From Ornithodoros turicata (taxonomy: Eukaryota; Arthropoda; Arachnida; Ixodida; Argasidae), in contig NC_088202.1 in NCBI RefSeq assembly GCF_037126465.1, positions 100,595,962-100,659,961 of the forward strand: 64,000 nt of DNA, written 5' to 3'. Shown here in pieces: positions 1,993-25,529 of this stretch. The position numbers and the translations under genes are program-made. The first letter of the stretch is position 1; each line of letters opens with the position of its first letter. Below the pieces are notes generated by a model that was not told the DNA's origin, did no database searches, and worked only from the letters and a program-made list of their open reading frames with translations.

Positions 1993-2957
1993 TTAAAAAA
2001 TACGACTTTCACACGTTGTTCGATTTAAAATGAAACTACCCAGCTTAAAGTGCAGCGTCAGCGTCGATCTACCGCGCTTTTGTAGCGGTAGCTTGCGACC
2101 TGTGTTGTCGCGGATAGAGATGGTGATTGAGGAAATTTCGCGTAGCACTAACTTAAAGTACTGAACGGGAAGAAAGCTGAAACTCCATTGTACTTTCGTT
2201 CTATCGTAAACGAATGCAGTTAATTTCAGTATCGCATGACGCCTGTTTCCCACTAGGGAGGCCATGACGAGATCCGTGTGTATTATAATACAGTTAATGG
2301 GAAGATCTATGGTCACTTCGTCGACACCCTTATCATTTTCGGTAAATACAGGTTTCACATCAAAACCCAGTAGGTACGGAAAGTAATCAGATAATGTAAC
2401 GTTTTCTTGCAAGCCGAGCAAGCACCTCCTCGCCCACGCATCGTACGCGAGGGAAGCCTCGGGTTGCAGACGCTCATTGATGGCGCTCACGATGGCTTTG
2501 GGTGTTTCGTAGTAATTTGGTTGAAGTGAAATGCGCAGAGTTTCCGCCTCTCTAGTGTTTATGTGAATGCGGTATGTCTTCACTATGGGATTACACGTGA
2601 TGCGCTTTCAGGGTTCCTGCAACGTAGATGTGCTTCACCTGAATGAGGTCCAGGAACTCGGTTGACAAGTTGAAATTCGCAAGGAGAGAGAGCAAGTAAG
2701 TGTTGTCTTTGTATTCCACTCTTGATTCAGTATAGTTCGTCGCTCTCAAGAATTTGTTGATTGTGTCGATAATTAGCAATTGGGGTTGCAAAATCACATC
2801 ATTATTGATCAATATCACTCAGCAAACTCGCATAATAACGGCTGTTTCCTCTGCAAGCGGTAACACGTGTGGGACCGTGCGTACTCTGCCACCAGGTCCA
2901 TGCCTGCGTTCGAGAGCAGATACACAGCAGATACACGTAAAATTCATTTTCTGACAT
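1993..2957 (-). pseudogene. Broken Polinton penton (minor capsid) relic, second family
   Basis: This minus-strand relic matches, segment by segment, the penton gene of the intact-ended element at 7038-8321. It starts at the ATG at 2957 with a DFYVYLL-like N-terminus (EFYVYLL) and then breaks frame. A middle block at 2818-2591 resembles the ALQDFL/YTFQL region of the other copy. A long C-terminal block at 2583-1993 shares the PNYYETP motif, the VQYFKL segment and the closing ISIRDNTGR...LTLHFK motif. Pentons of this type are single-jelly-roll vertex proteins of Polinton/adintovirus capsids. At least two frame changes and a stop break it. Its sequence differs enough from the neighbouring copy to be a different element family rather than a recent duplicate. 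Penton identity is family knowledge applied to motifs seen here. Confidence 0.7.
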
Positions 2958-3000
2958 TGCTGGCGGGCACCCAAGAATTGTGATCATTGGTGTATCCGAA

Positions 3001-3240
3001 TCAGTGAACGAAGTAGTACAATACCCTTTTAACTTTCTTCTTTCTAATCACTGCGGATATGAGTTGCTTATCATACGAGGAAAGTTGATGGACGGGCTGC
3101 AATTCCTGGTCGTAGAACGATCCTACTATTTCTTTTCCCGTCAAATCTTTCACGTACACTACGGGTGGATCGGTGCTTCCCGTTCGCGATACCTCAGACA
3201 CTTCGGCCGTCCACCTTTGATCGTAGCATTTGGCAAACAT
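3001..3240 (-). pseudogene. Polinton integrase C-terminal fragment
   Basis: An 79-codon minus-strand frame lies immediately upstream of the penton relic, the same gene order as in the element at 3913-13555 (integrase then penton). The segment RWTAEVSEV, followed by a DPPVVYVKDL-type strand and GSFYDQELQPV, is the usual SH3-like tail of Polinton integrases. The frame ends in RKKKVKRVLYY, equivalent to the start of the chromodomain region (VRIVSRKK...) in the other copy. The catalytic core is absent. It is a relic of an element distinct from the adjacent one. The assignment rests on motif order and the adjacent penton. Confidence 0.6.
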
Positions 3241-3339
3241 GCAGCGATCTAAGAGAGCCTCGCCTGGTCCCTATACTTTATACTTACTCTCGCGCAGGGC
3301 CGTCTTACGATTTAATCTGTTGAACAGTGGGCTTAGCAT

Positions 3340-3605
3340 GCGCCTATCATTGTGAGGCGGGTGGAGCCATGCCAGCTCGTTAGCACAAAGGCGCAGAGCT
3401 AAGCCAGCCAATCATCGATCGGTGGGTTTGGAATGGGCCAATCAGCGTGAAGGGGCAGAGCCAAACGCACTCATTAACATAAAGAGGCGGAGCTATGGTT
3501 GACCAATAATCAATCAGTGGACTTAACGTGCACCAATCAGTGTGAAAGGGCAGAGCGAGGCCAGCGCATTAGCATAAAGGGCGGGGCTACGATCGACCAA
3601 TCAGA
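3340..3605. repeat. Tandem ~70-bp array with CCAAT and GC-box-like motifs
   Basis: About four imperfect units repeat the pattern (C)CAATCA, then GTGAA(A)GGGCAGAG, then GC(A)TTAGCATAAAG, then a GGCGGAGCT or GGGCGGGGCT block. Copies of CCAATCA are seen near 3397, 3438, 3533 and 3597. The combination of inverted-CCAAT and GC-box-like motifs is typical of promoter arrays, but no gene start directly beside it was identified. It may be a regulatory remnant of the older Polinton relic or just a minisatellite. Confidence 0.55.
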
Positions 3606-3906: not shown

Positions 3907-3912
3907 AGCTAC
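3907..3912. other. Left target-site duplication of the Polinton (AGCTAC)
   Basis: The six bases AGCTAC lie directly outside the left terminal inverted repeat. The same six bases lie directly outside the right one at 13556-13561. Six-bp duplications are characteristic of Polinton/Maverick integration. Confidence 0.9.
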
Positions 3913-4167
3913 AGTAGTAATCGCCCAAGGATTATCCCTACCAAGGATAGTTTCGACCATCGCTATTCTCCTCGTCTGATATCGGAGGGTATTTGAAGCA
4001 GGGTACTTTGCGCCAAGCAGGAGCGCGCGCCAAGACCGCCTCGCGCGTTTCGTGGCCGCGCGTCGCGTAGAGAAGGGTTTCCTTCTCGCGTTTGAACATG
4101 CATCAACATGCAAAATACATCTTATTCCCTTTCCACATCTTTTATTACATCCCCGAGCGGAGAGTTT
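3913..4167 (+). repeat. Left terminal inverted repeat
   Basis: The segment pairs with the reverse complement of 13313-13555. By eye there are about nine substitutions, a 3-bp indel and a ~13-bp insertion in the left copy within the GC-rich CGCGCG block. The outer ends read AGTAGTAATCGCCCAAGG (left) and AGTAGTAGTCACCCAAGG (right, reverse complement). The open frames on the inner strand of both TIRs are the same sequence seen twice, not genes. Confidence 0.9.
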
Positions 4168-4216: not shown

Positions 4217-4426
4217 ATGGGAGCTGCATGGAAGCTTTTGACTCGATGTTTTGGAAAGGAATATGATGAGAGGGAGATGGCGGACGAGAAAAAATGGCGA
4301 CTTAAACAAGAAATATATGAAGCAAAAGCAGGAGCTGTGAGGAGGTTCCTCGCACACGAGCGTCTTATAGAAATGAAACGTCGTTCCGCAAAAAGTCAAG
4401 ACGATCAAATCGATGGGTATTGGTGA
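4217..4426 (+). CDS. Small basic/charged protein, first gene of the Polinton
   Basis: The ORF gives 69 residues and begins MGAAWKLLTRCFGKEYDER. The open frame extends back to 4052 but that part lies in the TIR, so the ATG at 4217, just inside the TIR, is the likely start. The middle is rich in Lys, Glu and Arg with heptad-like spacing and could form one long helix. A Gly at position 2 would permit N-myristoylation, although residue 6 is Lys rather than the preferred Ser/Thr. It stops 65 bases before the ATPase start. I do not recognise the family. Its position at the head of the cassette suggests an element-specific accessory or structural protein. Confidence 0.5.
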   Translation: MGAAWKLLTRCFGKEYDEREMADEKKWRLKQEIYEAKAGAVRRFLAHERLIEMKRRSAKSQDDQIDGYW

Positions 4427-4491
4427 GATGTACAATAAATCCATTTCTCACATCATCACTTATTCATTGTCTCGTTTACTTTTGCATCGTG

Positions 4492-5120
4492 ATGTCTGAC
4501 GCAGGTCGGTTTGCTTTTATCCACCCTGCAAGGGTTATTATTTGCGGTCCTTCCATGTCGGGTAAAACCTATCTCATTCGTAACATTCTAGGAAATCTTA
4601 CAGTATTCACTGTAGTCCCAGAGCAAATCTTTTACGTTAGCAAATATGATGTGACCTGGCAAAATGAATTCGCAAATGATATTACATTCCAGAAAGAGCT
4701 ACCAAAGACATGGGATGAGAGCGTGCCTACTTTGATTATAGTCGACGATCTCATGACTGAGAAGAATGTGATGCAAGAAATGTTCATCTCTATACGAGAG
4801 CATCACATCATAAGAACGCATCCATTATTTTTCTTTGTCAGTACTTATTTCACAACGACGTGAACTATAGAACATTATCTCACAATAGCACATATATAAT
4901 ATTATTTAATAATTTAAGGTCACGCACGCAACTTGAACTTTTAGGACGCCAGATCTTCGGCAAAGCTCAATTTCCGTACTTTATCAGTGCATTTGAGCAG
5001 GCAACAGAGAAACCATTTGGTTATCTAGTGATTGACCTACACCCTCTGACGCAGTCTCAATTTCGACTGCGAACAGGCATTACTGGAAACGTTTGCCAGT
5101 TTGTTTTCTTGCCAAAATGA
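4492..5120 (+). pseudogene. Polinton genome-packaging ATPase (FtsK/HerA type), frameshifted
   Basis: The start MSDAGRF is chosen over the earlier in-frame codon at 4420 because the first 24 codons do not resemble the family. A Walker A motif GPSMSGKT lies near residue 20 and a Walker B motif LIIVDDL near residue 80. This ATPase family pumps element DNA into preformed capsids. The first frame runs into a stop at 4861-4863. The rest continues in another frame (in-frame through 4860-5120) with the expected THNS-like strand (SHNSTYIILF) and the ARQ-type helix (LLGRQIF). One frameshift near 4840-4855 separates the two parts. The final TGA overlaps the ATG of the next gene (ATGA at 5117-5120). The broken frame means this copy probably makes no functional ATPase unless shifted. 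Confidence 0.8.
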
Positions 5121-6025: not shown

Positions 6026-7054
6026 ATTATAGGGATGCAAACGCTGGTTTGGGGGGGTTGCCCGATACTGCAGAGGTTGAAACATCTCTAAGAAACAGGC
6101 AATCCAAGAACTACAGCGAGATGATGTTTACACACTTTACGAAGAAGGAAGACGTAGATTTAAAAGAAGAAAGACCATCTCACTGCACATCGACGATCTT
6201 GATCCAGCAGACCTGATTTCATTCCTGCAGTACAAGAAACAAAATAAAGGATTTTCCTTCATACTCATTGTGATAGACTGCTTATCAAGACGACTCATGG
6301 CTACACCCATTAAGACCAAGCGTGGTGAAGATGTGAAGAAAGGATTTATCAAGTTGTACAGCCATAAAAAAACTATCCACATCATTTGCAGGTAGATAGA
6401 GGGAGAGAGTTCTACAACAAACACGTGAAAGCATGGTGTAAACGTCACTCAATACACATCTATAGCTCTAGATCTATTTACAAATGTTCTTTAATCGAGC
6501 GTGCAATTAGAACTATTAAAGCTAGACTTTATCGTTATTTCGCCAGTGAAGGTCATCACAAGTACATTGCTGTTCTCCCAAAGATCATCGCCGACTACAA
6601 TTCGTCATATCACTCGACTATCAAGATGGCCCCGAACGACGTCGATAAAAATAACGAGATCGAACTATTCAATAGACTTCACAGTAAAAATGACAACAAA
6701 CCAAAAAAGATTCCATTGAATATTGGTGATCAGGTGCGTGTACTCACCAATAGATCAATTTTTGACAAGGGGTACATTGGGCACTGGTCCTTAGTTGTCT
6801 ACACGATCACGCGATACAAGAACTCGGATTCACCAGTGTTTTACATAGCTGGTCCAGACGGGGTCGAAGACGATGCAACTTACTATGCCAATGAATTGCA
6901 ACGCATAGTGAAATCGCAAGATGACCCATACCCAATTGTACGCATAGTAAGTCGAAAGAAAATAAACGGTGTCACACATTATAAAATGAAATGGCTAGGT
7001 TATGGTCACTCATTTAATTCCTGGGTTCCAGCCCAAGATGCCGCGAAGTTCTGA
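6022..7054 (+). pseudogene. Polinton retroviral-type integrase with chromodomain, two frameshifts
   Basis: This DDE integrase inserts the element and generates the 6-bp target duplication. It is read in three successive frames. The first begins at 6022 and drifts before ~6090. The middle segment, ~6090-6392, carries the first catalytic Asp in an ADLISF context and the strand FILIVIDCLSRR. The third, 6386-7054, carries the second Asp in LQVDRGREF and the catalytic Glu in LIERAIRTIKARL. An SH3-like region (VRVLTNRSIFDKGYIGHW) follows, and the C-terminus is a chromodomain (VRIVSRKK..., MKWLGYGHSFNSWVP). All three acidic residues are present, but frameshifts near 6075-6090 and 6360-6385 break the gene. 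The last 17 bases overlap the penton start. Confidence 0.85.
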
Positions 7055-8321
7055 TTTTTACGTGTATCTCCTATCCAATGATTGCATGGATATGCACCCG
7101 AACAACAGTCTCAATGACTACAATTTCTCTGAGTGCACCACCACAAGTGAATGAAGAATATGAAGTCGGCCTGCATGAACTTTCCATCTCTAATGTATTC
7201 TACAACATTCCACGGACTAACGATGCTACTATACATATTACTTCCAGAAGCATTATTGAGCTGCGTAAGGAAGTTGTTGTGATATCGACTTTGGAACACG
7301 CACTGCAAGATTTTTTAAAAGAATTCAACATCGCATTTGGTTATGTTGATGGAAGGTACACATTCCAACTACCTCAAATAATTCATTCTATCAAGTTTTT
7401 GGACGAAGAACTGCAACAAGCCATGAGTGTGTCCACTATACAGTGTTTGAAAGTTGTAGGTGCTAAAGTTCCACGTCAGAACATGTACATGGGAGAGGAA
7501 GCTATCTCAAGGATGCTTTTAATGGAAGAGGTGACTATCATTACACAATATGCTTCAATCATATTCACACCAGGTCGCCCTATCACTGTCCCACTAAATC
7601 GCTCCTTTAAAAGATATGAAATCGATGCAAAGATACTATTCCAAAACAATACCTATACATTATTGGTCCCACGTCTCTTTTTTATCCCTGAACAACTCAA
7701 GAGACTCCTCAAATTAAACTCAGTAAACTGTTAAAAAATACAACACAATACATTGGAGATCCATTTACATTCAGTTTTGGTGTTGTTCTGAAAGAAGTAA
7801 TACTTGCAAGGGAAGAAGTCCAAATTCCACCAAATTATTACGAGACACCACGTTCGCTTCTACAAGCTATCAGAGATATGATAGGTAGCAATGCTATACT
7901 AACGTACAATGAAGATACACAGCTGTTTACTTTCACTCCTGTTGATGGAGTAACTATAGATCTTTCTGAATATTTGAGTACTATGTTAGGTTTCGCACCA
8001 ATTCAGTCTGTTGCAAACAGCACCATCGGAACCACACCACTCAATCTTAAACCATTGTTTCATAATTTCATGATTTATTGTGACATTATCGAATCATCTC
8101 ATATAGGTGCAAAAAAGTTTCCCATTTTGAAACTTGTCCCATATTTACATAAGGATGATCCCCAGATTCATTACAGCTTCTATAACGTGCAATATTTGAA
8201 GCTGTTACAGAATGAAATCATGTAAATTTCGATTAAGTTGTATGATGAGACAGGTCGTCCACTTCATTTTAGAGGACCAGGTCGTACAGCTCTAGTTCTA
8301 CACTTCAAAAATGTATCTTAA
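7038..8321 (+). pseudogene. Polinton penton (minor capsid protein), frameshifted and with a stop
   Basis: The start at 7038 gives the family N-terminus DFYVYLLSNDCMDMHPNN. The frame then changes near 7120-7140 to one containing EVGLHELSISNVFYNIP. A second change near 7720-7735 leads into the FTFSFG...PPNYYETPRSLLQAI block. An in-frame TAA at 8223-8225 precedes the conserved closing strand (ISIKLYDETGR, then LVLHFK), which ends at 8319-8321. Pentons form capsid vertices. The product would be about 420 residues, which fits the larger two-part invertebrate forms. It overlaps integrase upstream by 17 bases and the pVI-like gene downstream by 11. Disruptions are described only; the copy is inactive as read. 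Confidence 0.8.
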
Positions 8322-8619: not shown

Positions 8620-9045
8620 GCACTCCGAAAATGGGTGTGGATTGGCGCCCAAGAGGGGTTAAAAGTCGGGACAATGGGTCGCCCCTTTCACATGTAGAAA
8701 GTGTGGCGGACAATGCTTCGAATCGGCCATCGCATTCCGAAAAACAGGTGGCCCAGGTAAGGTTGGGTTGTGAGGGCGATGTCAAAAGGTAAAGGGGGAT
8801 TGGAGGACAATGATTCCAATCGTGAACGGGATCGCACTCCAAAAAATTGTGGTCAGTGGGGGGTAAAAAGTGTGCATCAGCATCCAAGCTGGTTAGAAGC
8901 CAAACAATGGGTCGCCTTTCACTTGTAGAAAATGTGGTGGACAATGCTTCGAATTGCGATCGGCCATCGCATTCCGAAAAACAGGTGGACCCAGGTAGGG
9001 TTGGGTTGTGAGGGCAATGTCAAAAGGTAAGGGGGCTGGAAGAAA
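8620..9045 (+). repeat. Direct repeat of ~135 bp, spaced ~236 bp, upstream of the capsid gene
   Basis: Two copies (about 8670-8803 and 8906-9040) share GGGTCGCC...CACnTGTAGAAA, GACAATGCTTCGAAT, CGGCCATCGCATTCCGAAAA and GGTTGGGTTGTGAGGGC blocks. The space between copies also repeats shorter pieces (TCGCACTCCAAAA near 8830 echoes TCGCACTCCGAAAA near 8619). It fills the only large gap in the cassette. It may serve as promoter or splicing DNA for the downstream capsid gene, or simply be a duplication. Confidence 0.7.
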
Positions 9046-9120: not shown

Positions 9121-10422
9121 ATGTCGCAGGTCAACATTGTACATGCACAGTCCCAGCTGGCTTTGAAGGGGGAGTGTGAGTTATTCAACATACCTCCTAC
9201 GCAAGTTTCAATAGAATCATGCGTGACGCAAGTCTATTATCCTGTTTCTACAATCAGCAGAGGAGAATCGACGATCGAATGGAACATAACAAATCTCTCA
9301 GACTTGTATCTCGATTTATCATCACTGTATTTTAATATAACTAGGCAGATATTGAGGTCGGATGGGAGTGAACCAATTACCCGAAAAGTAGACGGTATCA
9401 CTGAGGACACTGTATTCCCAGTCAACATCTTGGGCGCCGCTTTATTTAAATGTCTAACCATTCACTTGAATCAACGTCTAGCGAGCAGTAACTGTTTGAA
9501 CTCCTATCGATGTATGATTGATACCCTACTTCATACGAATACTCATCTGCAGAAGACTTTAGATGATTGTGCAATGTATACATATCACACAGGAGAGCAT
9601 GCAGCAAATGATCAAGTCGCTCAGGATGCAAAGTTGCGCATTGCTAGGACAAGTGGGGGGAAACTATTTGAAATTGTCATGAAAGTTAACACCGACCTCA
9701 CAAACCAAGGGAGGCTTTTGTTACCTGGTGTGGGGGTTCGAGTGACTGCTCTACATAATACGGATAGCTTTAGATTGCTAACTGGCACCAATGAAACTCA
9801 TAAGCATCAATTGAAAATCCACAGCGCGGCACTTGTAGCACGCAAAGTCAAAGTTAGCAACTCAAGTTTTATTGCACACCAGAAAGCCCTTAGATCATCC
9901 CCATACATCATGCGTGGACTAGAAAGCAAAGTCTGCTCGCTTTCGCCGGGCCTTCATGATGCTATCTTTGAAAACTTATTCCCTGATAGAATTCCTGATC
10001 AACTTACTGTATGTCTAGTTCGCACCGAGGCTTATCAGGGTGATTACAAGTCGAGCCCCTTTTGTTTCGAGCATTTTAACGTGAGTTCTGTAACACTATC
10101 AGTTGATGGATACAGGAAACAACTATCCTATGACTGGGAAAACGATCTGGCTAGAGCAAGCTACTATGAATTCTTGTATCAACTGAATGAAAAACATGTC
10201 GAGTTAAGTTATGAAGAATATAAAAAAAATTCCTTTATCATGCATTGGAACTTCAGTGCTGACGAAAGTTTTGGTTCCTACTTTAATCCATTGCGCAAGG
10301 GCAATTGCAGGATTGAAATGACGTTTGCTAAGCCATTACCTTGCGAAGTGTCGGTTATACTTATTAGTGAAGCACCCAAGATTTTATCAGTCGATTGTGA
10401 TCTTGTTGTTCGAGTGGACTAA
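9121..10422 (+). CDS. Polinton major capsid-type protein (F54H12.2-like family)
   Basis: The intact frame encodes 433 residues, the longest in the window. The start MSQVNIVHAQSQLALKGECE and the segment ELFNIPPTQVSIESC are typical of proteins annotated in many invertebrates as F54H12.2-like, in which a (D/E)LF..PPTQ.SIE motif opens the first jelly roll. Further agreement is LYLDLSSLYF near residue 65, FPVNILGAALFKCLTIHLNQ near 105-125, and NSYRCMIDTLL after that. I believe this family is the double-jelly-roll capsid shell protein of invertebrate Polintons, but cannot check the fold here. The stop TAA at 10420-10422 is two bases before the protease ATG. Its intactness in a cassette with several broken genes is notable. 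Confidence 0.75.
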   Translation: MSQVNIVHAQSQLALKGECELFNIPPTQVSIESCVTQVYYPVSTISRGESTIEWNITNLSDLYLDLSSLYFNITRQILRSDGSEPITRKVDGITEDTVFPVNILGAALFKCLTIHLNQRLASSNCLNSYRCMIDTLLHTNTHLQKTLDDCAMYTYHTGEHAANDQVAQDAKLRIARTSGGKLFEIVMKVNTDLTNQGRLLLPGVGVRVTALHNTDSFRLLTGTNETHKHQLKIHSAALVARKVKVSNSSFIAHQKALRSSPYIMRGLESKVCSLSPGLHDAIFENLFPDRIPDQLTVCLVRTEAYQGDYKSSPFCFEHFNVSSVTLSVDGYRKQLSYDWENDLARASYYEFLYQLNEKHVELSYEEYKKNSFIMHWNFSADESFGSYFNPLRKGNCRIEMTFAKPLPCEVSVILISEAPKILSVDCDLVVRVD

Positions 10423-10424
10423 GT

Positions 10425-10857
10425 ATGAATGTGTTTGATCTGGAATTATTGTTTTCTCTGAGCCATGAAACTTTGAATATGTATCGTTGGACCTTCGCAA
10501 TTGATATGGTACCAACTTTAACGACAGAAGGGTTTATAGTTATCAATACACACCCACACGACGGTCCCGGAGAACACTGGCTATTGTACATGAGAGACAG
10601 GAATGACAAATACATCTATGTGGACAGCTTTGGTCTACCACCGATTGAAGAAGTGCTGCTAGATCTGCCTGTTGATCAGTATTGCGAGAAATGCATTCAA
10701 AGCATTTACAGCTCACACTGTGGACTTTTTGTTTGTTTCTTTGCTTCCCGCTTTGTAAGAATTACCAACTCAAGAGCATTGTGTCCTTATTTGACAATAA
10801 CCTTGTACACAATGACCTCAAGATAATCAAAGTGATTGAAGAGGAATACCTCATTTA
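10425..10857 (+). pseudogene. Adenain-type cysteine protease, frameshift near the C-terminus
   Basis: The product is a capsid-maturation protease of the adenovirus/Polinton C5/C48-like class. Visible catalytic motifs are His in DGPGEHWLLY (about residue 46), the acidic residue in YVDSFGLPP (about residue 66) and the Gln...Cys pair in QSIYSSHCGLFVCFF (about residues 89-98). The frame then ends at 10824-10826 in an uncharacteristic tail. A different frame from about 10775 gives an acidic/hydrophobic end that stops at 10855-10857, which fits the family better, so a single frameshift near 10765-10778 is likely. All catalytic residues precede the break. It starts two bases after the capsid gene and ends 18 bases from the convergent minus-strand ORF. 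Confidence 0.8.
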
Positions 10858-10874: not shown

Positions 10875-11252
10875 TTATTTCTTCAATCTACAGACCTCTT
10901 TAAGGTAGTCCTCCAGACTCGACACCTTGCGACAACCATCTTTCTTGCGACGCACGATGTATTCCGAGTGTTGGATGTAAAAGTTTCGAATTATTGGTCG
11001 CTTGAGTCCGGCATTAAGAGAGATATTGTCACCCTGACGATACCGTCGCAACAAGTCACACTTGATGGCGACGAAGCGTTGGAGCCTCCGACTAATCATT
11101 CCTCGTTTCGTCCGCATTGGAAACGGGAGAATTTGCATAATGAGACGAAAATCAGCCTCTGGCCCGTTGCAGTTCAGATAGGAGTTTAATTTCATCAAAT
11201 CCTTGTACATAAGCCATTGTACCGTCAAAGCAAGTCGTTCACTGGGCTTCAT
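10875..11252 (-). CDS. Unrecognised basic protein, convergent with the protease gene
   Basis: A minus-strand frame of 125 codons runs from the ATG at 11252 (MKPSERLALTVQ). The open frame extends about 13 codons further upstream without an ATG. The protein is basic and helical, with RRLQRFVAIKCDLLRRYRQG in the middle and SLEDYLKEVCRLKK at the end. It stops 18 bases from the end of the protease gene across an A/T-rich stretch that could hold polyadenylation signals for both strands. I do not recognise it. The frame is uninterrupted, oriented opposite to the capsid cassette and placed where other Polintons carry replication genes. It shows no polymerase motif. It may be an accessory protein or the remnant of a longer minus-strand gene. 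Confidence 0.45.
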   Translation of the reverse strand: MKPSERLALTVQWLMYKDLMKLNSYLNCNGPEADFRLIMQILPFPMRTKRGMISRRLQRFVAIKCDLLRRYRQGDNISLNAGLKRPIIRNFYIQHSEYIVRRKKDGCRKVSSLEDYLKEVCRLKK

Positions 11253-11742
11253 GGTTGATCCGAGCTTGGATGGCAACCGAGATAAGGTCGGATGTTATTG
11301 TCTAGCCAATGAGATGGATTCGATGACAACGACAGCGTCACAGATGCTCATCATGTTGTATAAAGAAAGTTCTGGGTGGTGGCTTCAATGTCTTCACAAG
11401 AGGAAGATCCCCCGTCAGAAGACAATCAGAATCTGAACAAAGAATCACATTTTTAGAGAGCGAAAAACGGGAAAACTTTCTATACATGCAATCGTCCTCG
11501 GAGACTGCGCAGCACTTCTGCGCTTCCATCGTCGACTGTGAGGGGGATGTTGAAAAGGAATCCGATGGAAAGGATGTGCATACTTTCCCTATTGGTTGCG
11601 TTTTTCCTTAGTTTGCAATTCGTTGTTTACTACAAAGACTTTTTGCTACATGTGGATTTCTCCAGCCCACCCTCTTGTTGCTGAAAGTCATTTATACAAA
11701 GTAGGAGAGGATGTGATATGATAATGAGGATGCGTCAGCTTT
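11253..11742. other. Element DNA without a supported gene
   Basis: Short frames exist on both strands, including a 63-codon minus frame at 11338-11529, but none has motifs I can support. This stretch separates the minus-strand ORF from the plus-strand micro-exon gene and could be a divergent control region. Confidence 0.4.
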
Positions 11743-11786: not shown

Positions 11787-13079
11787 ATGGCCAACGATGG
11801 TGGTAAGTTTTGATGGTTTTTACCTTAAAGTTAGGTTTCTTACGAAAGTTGTCTTTCTCAGTTTTCTCGAGTTTTGAAGACGATGATGATAGTGGTGAGT
11901 TTTGGTGGTTTTTCTCATCAAGTTCACTTTCTTAAGAATATTATCTTTCTCAGTATTCACATCGAGCCCGGTGTTTTACTTCGAAGACTGTAAGGAAATG
12001 GCGAATATGAAAAGCGAGAAGTATCTAAAGTTCCGTTCTTTTCAGCGCCTGAGTCGCCACCACCAAGCTGTATTAGCTTGGCTGTATTAGCGACATTTCA
12101 TATATGCATGCGGGCATGTTAAGTTTCATTTCAGATGAATCAGTTTGTGTGGTAGCGAATGAAAGTATGTACCAGCATATGACTTTGATTAATTGATCTT
12201 AATAGCAAATATCTTTTTAGATAATCACCGGGTACCACCGTCGGAAAGTGAGTATAATTATAGATCCCGTTTCCATATTTGATCTTAATTGCAAATATTT
12301 TTTAGACGATCACCGGGTACCACCACCAGACAGTGAGTATAGTTATAGATCCTGTTTCTATGTTTGATCTTAATTGCAAATAGTATCTTTTTAGATACTC
12401 ACTGGATACCACCACCTGACAGTGAGTATAGTTATAGGTCTCGTTACCACGCTTGATATTACTAGTTGTTGTCTTTGTTTTCAGACTACCTGGCCCCCCA
12501 ATGCAGTGTATGTATTAGTGAACGTTCTCTTTCAGGATATAGAGTTTCAATGGCATATCATTTTATGTAGATGATATTAATAGTTGTTGTATTTGTTTTC
12601 AGATTACCCTGGCCCCCCAATGCAGTGTATGTATTAGTGAACGTTCTCTTTCAGGATATAGAGTTCCAGTGGTATATCGTTTTTATGTAGACAATATTAA
12701 TAGTTGTTGTATTTGTTTTCAGATTATCCTGACCCCCCTATGCAGTGTATGTATTAGTGAACATTCGCTTTCAGGATATAGTGTTCTAATGGCATATCAT
12801 TTTATGTAGATGATGATATTAATAGTTGTTGTATTTGTTTTTCAGATTACCCTGGCCCCCCTATGCAGCGTATGTATAAGTGAATGGAAATGTGGATGTT
12901 GTTCTTAATATTAGCTTCTCTTTCAGATCATTGCTGCTACTGCTTCAGTGAGTCATCTGGTTGGGTAAGCAATGTGACAAATGCTGATTTTACGTTATCT
13001 TTCAGATCCGGACGCCATTAGGGGTATAATTCAAGAAAGTTTATTTGAATCATTATTACATTTATTAAATATGCAATAA
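11787..13079 (+). CDS. Micro-exon gene of the Polinton: 14 coding exons, 135 residues
   Basis: Exons read: 11787-11802, 11862-11894, 11954-11989, 12046-12069, 12135-12164, 12221-12247, 12306-12332, 12395-12421, 12485-12505, 12603-12626, 12723-12746, 12846-12869, 12927-12947, 13006-13079. The twelve internal exons are 21-36 nt, all multiples of three, and each interrupts a codon after its first base (phase 1-1). Nearly all follow a pyrimidine-rich ...TTTCAG or TTTTTAG and precede GTGAGT, GTATGT or GTAAGG. Introns are 56-65 nt except three of 96-99 nt. The spliced frame stays open for 408 nt and stops at 13077-13079. The product is acidic and Ser-rich at first (SSFEDDDDSG), proline-rich in the middle (HRVPPSE, HRVPPPD, YPGPPMQ) and ends in a leucine-rich helix (QESLFESLLHLLNM). 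Exons 6-8 and 9-12 are tandem duplicates. No signal peptide is seen. Function is unknown. The exon 4 donor (GTATTA) is weak, and exon 9 lacks one base found in its paralogues. Confidence 0.75.
12189..12447 (+). repeat. Three tandem exon-intron units carrying 27-nt micro-exons
   Basis: Units of ~87 bp repeat GATCTTAATTGCAAATA, a TTTTTAG acceptor, a 27-nt exon, GTGAGTATA and GATCC(C/T)GTTT. The three exons encode variants of the same nine-residue motif ((N)NHRVPPSE, NDHRVPPPD, NTHWIPPPD). The duplication unit contains one whole exon with flanking intron halves. Confidence 0.85.
12456..12880 (+). repeat. Four tandem exon-intron units carrying 21/24-nt micro-exons
   Basis: Units of ~120 bp repeat ATATTAATAGTTGTTGTATTTG, TTTTCAG, the micro-exon, GTATGTATTAGTGAACG and CTCTTTCAGGATATAGAGTT. 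Exons 10-12 are 24 nt and end at GTATGT. In exon 9 a C is missing, so frame is kept only if the GT two bases earlier (GTGTAT) is used, giving 21 nt. Each unit also has a second acceptor-like CTCTTTCAG without a matching donor. Confidence 0.85.
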
Positions 13080-13080
13080 A
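13075..13080 (+). terminator. Polyadenylation signal AATAAA of terminal exon 14
   Basis: AATAAA overlaps the TAA stop of the exon beginning at 13006. A T-rich stretch follows. Confidence 0.6.
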
Positions 13081-13312: not shown

Positions 13313-13555
13313 AAACCCTCCGCTCGGGGATGTAATAAAAGATGTGGAAAGGGAATAAGATGTATTTTGCATGTTGATGCATGTTCAAACGCGAGAAGGA
13401 AACCCCTCTCTACGCGACGCGCGGGGCGGTCTTGGCGCGCGCTCCTGCTTGGCGCAAAGTACCCTGCTCCAAATACCCTCTGATATCAGGATGCGATGAG
13501 GATAGCGATGGTCGAAACTATCCTTGGTAGGGATAATCCTTGGGTGACTACTACT
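13313..13555 (-). repeat. Right terminal inverted repeat
   Basis: The segment is the inverted partner of 3913-4167. It lacks the ~13-bp CGCG-rich insert of the left copy. The end ACTACT abuts the AGCTAC duplication. Confidence 0.9.
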
Positions 13556-13561
13556 AGCTAC
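13556..13561. other. Right target-site duplication of the Polinton (AGCTAC)
   Basis: The six bases are identical to 3907-3912. They fix the right border of the element. Confidence 0.9.
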
Positions 13562-23900: not shown

Positions 23901-25529
23901 GTAAACCAAAGACAAATGGTACGCTGTGCAACCATGGAACTCAAATATGTCGCTCAGGAGAATGCAGGTTGTCGGTGTGCCAAAAATATGGCCTGGAACA
24001 GTGCTACCTCACGGGCGCTCACTACAACCCCGATGACATGTGCCTTATCGCCTGCAGGAAGCCTGGTATGTGCGTGGCAAAAAAACGCTAATTCCATAAT
24101 GTTCGCGTACGAGGATTCATAATTGAATTTTGGGACTGACTTTCTTTTGTGAATGAACAGGCGAACTTGCTGCATAGTAGGCGTTGTCTCTTTCGGAGTA
24201 ATATACCAATTCCGACGTTCCTGCTACTGACAAAAGCACCAACATTGCAACTCCCACACGGATTCGTTCATGGGCTCCCAATACCACTTTCTTTTGCGCC
24301 CGACTGTGAACGCGCGCTGCGCTGTCTAGATACGTCGCATGCGACACAAACTCCAACGCCATAAGCAACGTAGCAATGGAAACTTCCAAATGGAATAAGC
24401 TCCTGTCCTGCTGCTCGACGTAGGTCCAAGGAACCTGTTAGCTTGATTGGAAACGGCCTCTGCTTCCACATATTTGAATGGCCTCCGGTCATTGTGAATA
24501 CCATCGTCGCTTTGTATAACATCCATTGAACTGAACTGATCCAAGCATACAACAGTAGGTTTGACCTCACGGTATTAAATTATGTGCGAGAGAGTCATTG
24601 AGAGATGCTACGGAACTAACTAAATCGGTATTTGTCCATAATGCACTGCAACATGCAATGCAACAGGCACTGCACAGCAGCATGCACGGCAACACCCGAG
24701 CAATTCACCCATCCTTCGCAGGTCAAAACACTGACTGTAAAGAGGCATGCAAATTCGAAGCGATGAAGGAACTGTGCGGAAAAACGATGGAACCCGGAGC
24801 TGCATGCGACAATCTTTTAGGCTATTGCGACGTGTTTGGAAAGTGTCGCCCTATCGACGCTGTGGGTCCTCTGGCCAGACTACGACTGCTCATATTTGGA
24901 AGTCACATTCTCCAGAACTGGCTCATCGTAAGAGGCTCATGGTGCACGTTCGTGATAGATATTAATGCGTGTTGAAATGTCGTTATTTTTTTTAGAAGTA
25001 CTGGTACCTGACACTTCTCGGAGCGGTGTCAGTAGCGACTCTGATGGGAATATTCATTCGCGTGTGCTCTATCCATACTTCCAGCAGCAACCCCAACCTA
25101 GCACCTCGCAGGAAATTATCGCAAAGCATTAGGCATCCGTTGGATGTGATCAAGGAGACGGTAAGAGCTTGAGTGCATTCTCAATTGGAACTATACATAT
25201 ATTTGTGCTGTGTGCTTAGTGCTATAGCTATGCGCTTAGTGTGGTATGTACTTGAAGAAGCGGTATCGTACAGATGAAAATTATGTGTGCCAAAACCTTA
25301 CAAATGCGGCATAACTGCCTCAAAACTGCCTGGCGTTCATGGTGCACGCCAGTAGTCGTAGGTCGTCTCATTGGGTAATTTCAATGCTCTTGTAGCCTTT
25401 CTTGATTTTGCACTCTCAGATATCTGCTACATTCATACTGTCCACGAGATTATTTATTGCATTAATTTTTTTCAGATGCTGTCTTTCAGAGATATCCGAA
25501 TGTCCTCCTCGTCATATGTACACGTATAA
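14934..25529 (+). CDS. ADAM10/Kuzbanian-like membrane metalloprotease, 14 exons
   Basis: Exons read: 14934-14994, 15051-15195, 16110-16231, 16920-17155, 17310-17612, 21675-21871, 22237-22444, 22543-22720, 22780-22939, 23697-23795, 23875-24065, 24722-24927, 24996-25160, 25476-25529. All phases match and the sum is 2325 nt (774 residues), close to the family size. Exon 1 is a signal peptide ([12 protein letters not shown]). The prodomain begins with [13 protein letters not shown] and holds RRRR and PKRR furin-type sites. The catalytic domain has [20 protein letters not shown] and the zinc motif [10 protein letters not shown], whose third His comes from the next exon. The disintegrin-like domain has EECDCGY, followed by a Cys-rich region ([19 protein letters not shown]), a transmembrane helix in exon 13 ([18 protein letters not shown]) and a short tail ([13 protein letters not shown]). 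ADAM10 sheds Notch and other surface proteins. The last exon is the least certain part. Confidence 0.88.
16212..16493 (-). other. Unassigned minus-strand open frame inside the ADAM gene
   Basis: Ninety-three codons run opposite to the ADAM gene and overlap its third exon by 20 bases. The composition ([40 protein letters not shown]) looks protein-like, with four Cys. It could be an exon of a nested gene or a fragment of a mobile element. I do not recognise it. Confidence 0.25.
19510..19690 (+). mobile_element. tRNA-derived SINE
   Basis: The tRNA-like head has a box A (TGGCATAGTGG) near 19523 and a box B (GGTTCGAATCC) near 19578. The body (CGGCACCGTTCCCCTGAAATC) is shared with the SINE at 44549. 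It is not a functional tRNA because the stem pairing is poor and a SINE body follows. It resembles the tick Ruka type. Confidence 0.75.
19745..19995. repeat. AACATTGCAATGTTG repeat region
   Basis: Three to four ~85-bp units contain the self-complementary core AACATTGCAATGT(T) and GTTGTTTC(T/C)(A/G)CAACATTGTT. It starts with ACACTGTAAAA, like the MITE at 21877. It is probably an internally repetitive non-autonomous DNA transposon. Confidence 0.55.
21877..22200. mobile_element. MITE with ~80-bp terminal inverted repeats in an ADAM intron
   Basis: The left arm (ACACTGTAAAAAAAAATAT ... CTGTTGCCGGCATATGTGC) pairs with the right arm read in reverse (ACGCTGTAAGAACAATAT ... CTGTTGCCGGCAAATGTGC). A second inner pair, GTTTGGAGTGCAC and GTGCACTCCAAAC, gives a nested fold. 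It lies between exons 6 and 7. Confidence 0.7.

Follow-up and report, generated by a model that had tools for sequence, protein, structure and literature searches.

The gene described here is made up of very short exons and lies at positions 11787-13079 of a 64,000-nucleotide (nt) stretch of the argasid tick Ornithodoros turicata (NC_088202.1, forward-strand positions 100,595,962 to 100,659,961), referred to below as the window. It is carried by a 9,643-bp Polinton-class element, which is bounded by terminal inverted repeats (TIRs) and a 6-bp target-site duplication. A first-pass annotation had proposed a micro-exon gene inside a Polinton, and the TIRs, the duplication and the frame-keeping exon lengths in other copies of the element bear this out. 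Judged from its sequence, the gene is real and coding. Comparison across copies of the element shows purifying selection on most exons, with lengths and frame kept. We consider it probable that this is a spliced accessory gene of the element, sited beside its right TIR, with in-frame micro-exons that would encode a motif-bearing adaptor and whose number is tuned by duplication.

All features of the gene are on the forward strand. The start exon E1 (11787-11802) has 16 nt, as in 33/34 other copies. It is followed by E2 (11862-11894, 33 nt), which encodes the acidic sequence FSSFEDDDDS, E3 (11954-11989, 36 nt, FTSSPVFYFED), E4 (12046-12069, 24 nt, PESPPPS) and E5 (12135-12164, 30 nt), a PPSY motif being completed at the E4/E5 junction. 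Two tandem arrays come next. Array A (12193-12461) has an 85-nt unit of exon plus intron and holds three 27-nt exons, E6 (12221-12247, NHRVPPSE), E7 (12306-12332, DHRVPPPD) and E8 (12395-12421, THWIPPPD). Array B (12454-12884) has a 120-nt unit, likewise of exon plus intron, and holds E9 (12485-12507) and three 24-nt exons, E10 (12603-12626, YPGPPMQ), E11 (12723-12746, YPDPPMQ) and E12 (12846-12869, YPGPPMQ). E13 (12927-12947, 21 nt) encodes HCCYCF, with a CYC motif, and the last coding exon, E14 (13006-13079), ends in a TAA stop codon (13077-13079) that is overlapped by the polyadenylation signal AATAAA (13075-13080).

The coordinates and lengths given earlier were reproduced, as were the intron sizes (56-65 nt, with three of 96-99 nt). 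The claim of 12 internal exons of 21-36 nt, all multiples of three, stands for 11 of them. The twelfth, E9, had been modelled as 21 nt (12485-12505). The B exon family has 24 nt in 237/286 cases, and E9 carries a 1-nt deletion which, with the family donor, makes it 23 nt long and breaks the frame; the donor needed for the 21-nt form lies 2 nt upstream and scores -2.5, against 1.7 for the family donor. The open frame of 135 residues up to the stop codon can be reproduced, but the E9 deletion makes it doubtful for this copy, which is probably not among the copies with an open frame. The statement that every exon is phase 1-1 adds no information once all exons are multiples of three. A second open frame runs through the B exons and E13 (12603-12947), with SITLAPQC-like repeats, and a 23-nt E9 would enter it. 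A short tandem duplication at 12060-12095 has left the E4 donor sequence in duplicate, at a spacing of 14 nt, and intron 4 is 65 nt long in the window compared to 55 nt in 33/33 other copies.

A chain of splice sites was scored without knowledge of the reading frame, using consensus matrices set from general knowledge. The setting reported was reached after two stricter ones, and unless weak donors and acceptors are admitted the chain is incomplete. At this setting the chain scores 87.2. None of 350 other windows on the two strands, some of them overlapping, exceeds 27.2, and 300 dinucleotide shuffles average 19.4 (sd 8.2) and reach 40.3 at the most. Of the 13 introns, 11 are reproduced exactly and two differ in the donor, at E4 and at E9; one extra intron is added. 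The acceptors of all 12 internal exons are recovered, together with 10/12 donors; in the chain E4 comes out at 38 nt and E9 at 23 nt. For E4 the earlier length of 24 nt is to be retained, this being the length in 33/33 other copies where the exon was found. Among 200 randomly perturbed matrices, none gave E4 as 24 nt, 12 gave E9 as 21 nt and 148 gave it as 23 nt, while each of the other ten exons was recovered in 62 to 143. An intermediate limit, looser than the strictest, gave six introns and a score of 43.9, where the null reached 29.8 at most. E2 and E3 are placed by the splice chain as well as by the comparisons below, and the same holds for the A exons and for E10-E12.

The genome gave 125 matches to 12200-13080, and 39 of 147 candidate places were scored. 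The comparisons below are based on 37 other loci merged from that list, with exons marked by homology; this set is biased towards copies that resemble the window, exons missed by homology are uncounted, and every exon type is present in 28/37 copies. A second set comprises 18 loci, some of them rearranged, that were found through the predicted protein P0001 discussed below (L047, L049-L051 and 14 of 34 further regions). In the 37 copies the length check suggested earlier, that of exon length modulo three, shows lengths kept in threes: 555/604 internal exons are multiples of three, and 310/318 outside the B family. The second set gives 171/199, and 106/111 outside B. Introns depart from their modal length in 250/626 cases, 45 of them by threes. 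The A exons have 27 nt in 145/151, E3 has 36 nt in 31/32, E5 30 nt in 34/35, E13 21 nt in 33/33 and E14 74 nt in 31/33. E2 has 33 nt in 29/34 copies, 39 nt in four and 43 nt in one, and in the second set 33, 36, 39 or 48 nt, so that 43 is its sole length over both sets that is not a multiple of three. AG precedes 146/151 A exons and 268/286 B exons, and GT follows 148/151 and 272/286, respectively. The B exons carry runs of C, and the loss of a C does not account for all of the 23-nt B exons. Among the 28 copies with all exon types, 13 are open from end to end and would encode 127-182 amino acids.

Constraint on the encoded protein was assessed from the ratio of nonsynonymous to synonymous differences (pN/pS), calculated pairwise over copies; the copies share ancestry, so the pairs are not independent. 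In the proposed frame the ratio is 0.07 for E2, 0.16 for E3, 0.21 for E4 and 0.10 for E13, and 0.59, 0.48 and 0.65 for the A exons, the B exons and E14. Shifted frames give 0.89-22 for E2-E4, 2.17 and 0.13 for E13, and 1.23 and 1.67 for E14; for E2-E4 and E13 the shifted ratio exceeds 1 in 6/8 cases and is 0.89 and 0.13 in the two remaining ones. Diversity in E2-E4 is 0.09-0.17 at third codon positions and 0.007-0.037 at first and second positions, with 0.037-0.049 in introns 1-4 and approximately 0.05 in the upstream flank. It is worth adding that in these 35 copies, window included, the third positions of E2-E4 are some 2-4 times as diverse as the adjoining introns and flanks, and that the last exon (13006-13079 and its counterparts) has a diversity of 0.16, far above the 0.041 of the preceding intron 13. 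Among 38 copies including the window, E14 has 74 nt in 32; of these, 31 have TAA at the end and 4 are interrupted by a stop before it. Reading through intron 13 was tried as the true gene end and rejected, with a pN/pS of 1.44 and a stop codon in 5/33; compared to the 0.65 of the E14 frame, this weakly favours the last exon of the first-pass annotation.

The introns contain a record of how the arrays arose. Introns 1 and 2 match at 46/59 positions, parts of introns 5-8 are alike, and so are parts of introns 8-11; exon and intron were therefore duplicated as a unit, with breakpoints in the introns. The number of exons differs greatly between the 37 copies, from 1 to 40 for A (the highest being 10, 14 and 40) and from 3 to 41 for B (the highest being 21, 25 and 41), these counts being lower bounds where the analysed stretch lacks the 5' exons. 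Typical copies have two or three A exons (32/37) and 3-11 B exons (34/37). Several of the larger arrays have a pN/pS of 0.43-0.55 (L029, L028 and L016 for A, L017 for B), as does the B array of L061 at 0.45, and in L029 39/40 A exons have 27 nt. The B array of L023 has a ratio of 0.89 and the A array of L058 one of 2.16. The B arrays of L020 and L033 contain just two distinct 24-nt sequences each and say little on pN/pS. Some arrays thus look kept, and others look decayed or satellite-like. Within the window the A exons are 23.5% divergent and their introns 12.0%, a comparison that was not used, there being three copies only.

The predicted product is acidic and proline-rich, as described earlier, with 24 prolines in 135 residues. 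It matched no Pfam family, and judged by eye rather than with a predictor it has no evident signal peptide, its start (MANDGVFSSFEDDDDS...) not being hydrophobic. PPSY, formed where E4 and E5 join, is retained in 31/34 copies, window included, and CYC in 33/34; CYC arises in 1.1% of shuffles of the same composition. An amphipathic helix in the last exon was considered and discarded, being not above shuffles (0.40). In a protein set of 5.8 billion, the spliced product has a single relative, P0001, the NCBI model LOC135388778 of O. turicata, which is also the sole aligned match in a second search. A single-sequence fold of P0001 has a predicted local distance difference test score (pLDDT) of 37.8, in line with disorder, as a weak indication. 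P0001 joins E3-E4-E5-A-A-B-E13, six junctions with the same phase as in the window model. Introns 2 and 13 are left unspliced in it, and the segments read through recur verbatim at the locus C3:88641841-88642757, on a contig of the same genome as the window, where E14 carries a stop. At that locus E13 is preceded by two more 24-nt B exons, of which one has AG/GT and the other a GG acceptor; both are passed over by the model. P0001 is either evidence of skipping or the path chosen by a gene predictor. Variation at the DNA level, in exon number, is seen directly; variation by splicing is possible, and the hint of exon skipping in this gene comes from the P0001 model alone.

These observations show that the gene grew by serial tandem duplication of exon plus intron units, broken within introns. 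With internal exons that all start at codon position 2 and have lengths divisible by three, units can be gained, lost or skipped and the frame stays undamaged. Beyond this, we propose the following. Each micro-exon would contribute one short motif, namely an acidic patch, PPSY, HRVPPPD, YPGPPMQ or CYC, to a protein that may act as a largely disordered intracellular adaptor, and the element would tune the number of motifs (the valency) mainly through exon number and possibly also through skipping. The likely partners would be proteins with WW domains, for example Nedd4-type ligases. This is the weakest step, suggested by analogy with adenovirus protein VI, whose PPSY motif recruits Nedd4-family ligases according to the accessible part of the source (PMC2841620); the tick product shares PPSY with it, no other similarity was noted, and the motif alone is weak evidence.

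A number of results weigh against this proposal. PPxY occurs in 24% of the shuffles, which tells against an adaptor role. E5 has a pN/pS of 0.79, with 0.76 and 0.81 in its shifted frames, and therefore shows no evident constraint. In the window itself the chain leaves the frame when E9 takes the family donor (23 nt), and only 2,048/4,096 exon subsets then stay in frame. End-to-end reading is interrupted in 15/28 of the complete copies. B exons depart from 24 nt in 49/286 cases, and those in threes are as few as 11/28 in L060 and 16/25 in L033. Length changes are little rarer per nucleotide in exons (62 per 15,833, mainly in B exons) than in introns (250 per 46,072), and only 13 of those 62 off-mode exons differ by threes. 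Across the aligned 5' block, the number of distinct gap patterns divided by the number of sites is 0.043 for exons, against 0.059 for introns and 0.070 for the flank, and one of the six patterns seen in exons is a multiple of three.

Much of this evidence also bears on other explanations. It falls little short of an even chance that the large arrays resemble satellites and are by-products of tandem duplication that followed insertion, a working gene needing only approximately three A exons and a few B exons. This would account for the modest arrays of typical copies, for the ratios of 0.89 and 2.16 in L023 and L058 and for the poor keeping of threes in the B exons of L060 and L033, but not for the low ratios of five other arrays or the uniform A exons of L029. 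A somewhat less probable view, which nevertheless has a real claim to consideration, is that isoform diversity is the point of the gene, with differential skipping of micro-exons yielding many protein variants, as in the micro-exon genes of schistosomes. With a 21-nt E9 any of the 4,096 exon subsets is in frame, the P0001 model omits the two B exons of its own locus, and several splice sites are low-scoring. On the other hand, exon duplication alone yields frame-safety, and P0001 may reflect a predictor's choice, since it reads through two introns as well.

That a host tick gene was captured by the element, or that one copy has been domesticated, seems to us improbable. One copy is indeed annotated by NCBI as a host gene, LOC135388778, but TIRs of the element stand beside the gene in 31/37 copies, the copies are at many dispersed places, and the protein searches found no further relative. 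It is hardly credible that there is no gene at all and that the splice-like signals arose by chance in a tandem repeat. A stricter matrix does reduce the chain to three introns, which at penalty 8 scores 3.0, below the 5.1 of the best among the other windows, and repeats do inflate the chain score, the eight non-duplicate introns summing to 43.6, just over the shuffle maximum. Against this stand the pN/pS ratios, the diversity by codon position and the conservation of exon length across copies. We retain the accessory gene of in-frame micro-exons, tuned by duplication, as the probable explanation.

Comparison with known systems is instructive. The micro-exon genes of schistosomes, as the accessible parts of PMC8293314 and PMC10526429 describe them, share with the tick gene short symmetric exons of at most 36 nt that can be omitted without frame damage, and proline is common; they are worm genes with long introns, whereas here the introns are approximately 55-100 nt and the owner is a virus-like element. 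The multiple symmetric exons of up to about 36 nt that mark such genes are present in the tick gene, while an N-terminal signal peptide is, by eye, absent. The bicycle genes of aphids are closer in architecture than the schistosome genes, as far as the accessible text of PMC9168663 goes: their micro-exons are numerous and begin at codon position 2, and they have a CYC motif and diverge fast. The tick gene has CYC in E13, and the structure-only classifier for bicycle genes, run with the coefficients in that text, scores it as positive with a logit of 11.22; the classifier was trained on an aphid, and the logit falls to -16.74 if phase 2 is counted as phase 1. Bicycle proteins mostly carry N-terminal secretion signals and are described in the same text as insect salivary effectors, whereas the tick product has no evident signal, and homology to them was not detected, the protein searches having given only P0001.

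Among viral genes, one of the closest parallels is EBNA-LP of Epstein-Barr virus, which is built of in-phase exons repeated in tandem, in numbers that differ from genome to genome, as here. EBNA-LP differs in having two alternating larger exons, which are not micro-exons, in belonging to a herpesvirus and in its unrelated sequence. A search of full-text literature, with most subscription journals outside its coverage, found no paper pairing 'micro-exon gene' with 'Polinton', and a wider search found none with 'microexon' among the papers listed. Micro-exon genes have been described as genes of hosts or parasites; here a virus-like mobile element owns one, keeps it in frame and amplifies it. 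With dozens of copies, a single genome offers a natural series in which to follow the growth, shrinkage and decay of exon arrays, and makes it testable whether symmetric micro-exons are kept for skipping or are a by-product of duplication. A bolder suggestion, which we regard as unlikely though worth stating, is that the element carries a purpose-built diversity module, seen in the range of A and B exon numbers and perhaps extended by skipping, and that such elements may be one route for the origin and spread of micro-exon effector genes such as the bicycle genes.

The element itself has the termini expected of a Polinton. Polintons have TIRs with AG and CT at their ends, flanked by a 6-bp target-site duplication. 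Here the left TIR (3913-4167) starts with AG, the right TIR (13313-13555) ends with CT, and the two are 94-98% identical in blocks; AGCTAC is found on both sides, at 3907-3912 and 13556-13561. The right TIR is the one matched 3' of the micro-exon gene in the other copies counted above. The genes assigned are all on the forward strand, in the same order as in L001 (QGON01000029.1), the one Polinton-like contig that a search of genome contigs gave. The first part of a packaging-type ATPase (4420-4863) has a weak AAA/IVa2 score, below the cut-off, and the rest is in another frame; the L001 ATPase matches at 4522-4806 and 4764-5117. The integrase (6084-7054) is of retroviral type with a C-terminal chromodomain (PF00385, 4.8e-6), and is broken into two parts in different frames, which match the L001 rve plus chromodomain integrase at 6084-6365 and 6377-7036 (E 2.8e-47). 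Next comes a broken gene that we take to be penton-like (7038-8309), its parts in different frames, matched by an L001 protein at 7038-7121 and 7776-8309. Since these three genes are split between frames, this copy of the element is decaying.

The double-jelly-roll major capsid protein (9121-10422) has 8 homologues at 27-67% identity. Its structural model is of moderate confidence (pLDDT 58.8), and the best Foldseek matches are capsid proteins, including those of bracovirus, adintovirus, MELD virus, Sputnik and mavirus, with modest TM-scores of 0.3-0.6. An adenain-like protease (10425-10826) follows, with PF00770 at E 0.005, below the cut-off, and a match to the L001 protease at 10443-10730; capsid, ATPase and protease are therefore all present, although the Pfam scores of the last two are by themselves below the cut-off. 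Protein-primed PolB was not found among the 18 open reading frames (ORFs) of the window scanned with Pfam, and the stretches of the element with no assigned gene, approximately 0.8 and 1.0 kb long, could not accommodate a complete PolB. From its sequence the element is Polinton-class, with no recognisable PolB in this copy. The suggestion that the carrier is an adintovirus is not followed, since that label calls for PolB as well as hexon. As the accessible parts of PMC10675110 and PMC11071296 describe Polintons/Mavericks and adintoviruses, the element shares with them the TIRs, 6-bp duplication, integrase with chromodomain, ATPase, adenain-like protease and double-jelly-roll capsid, and differs in its size of 9.6 kb with no recognisable PolB and in carrying a micro-exon gene. 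Adintovirus-like integrations are known from hard ticks, and Ornithodoros is absent from the main text of that work (PMC10675110).

Scans of viral contigs with the capsid, the integrase, a capsid alignment and P0001 found no relative, nor did a phage collection; a PDB sequence search gave two matches at chance level, and PHROGs weak matches only. The splice chain in 7.6 kb of L001 scored at most 14.3. The Polinton-like gene set of L001 is binned in the metagenome-assembled genome of a tubeworm bacterial endosymbiont, and probably represents DNA of the host or of a virus that ended up in an assembly of bacterial sequence. Within the element, a tandem duplication of approximately 230-240 nt lies between the penton-like and capsid genes (8684-9035), and a minus-strand ORF of 133 amino acids at 10875-11276, with no family match above the cut-off, adjoins the micro-exon gene. 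A second, probably older Polinton relic is found on the minus strand at 1996-3366, approximately 0.5 kb from the main element, to which its penton-like protein is 32% and its integrase piece 30% identical. Further along the window, at 24598-24975, there is an ADAM10 cysteine-rich exon (PF21299, E 3.7e-9), which fits an animal chromosome.
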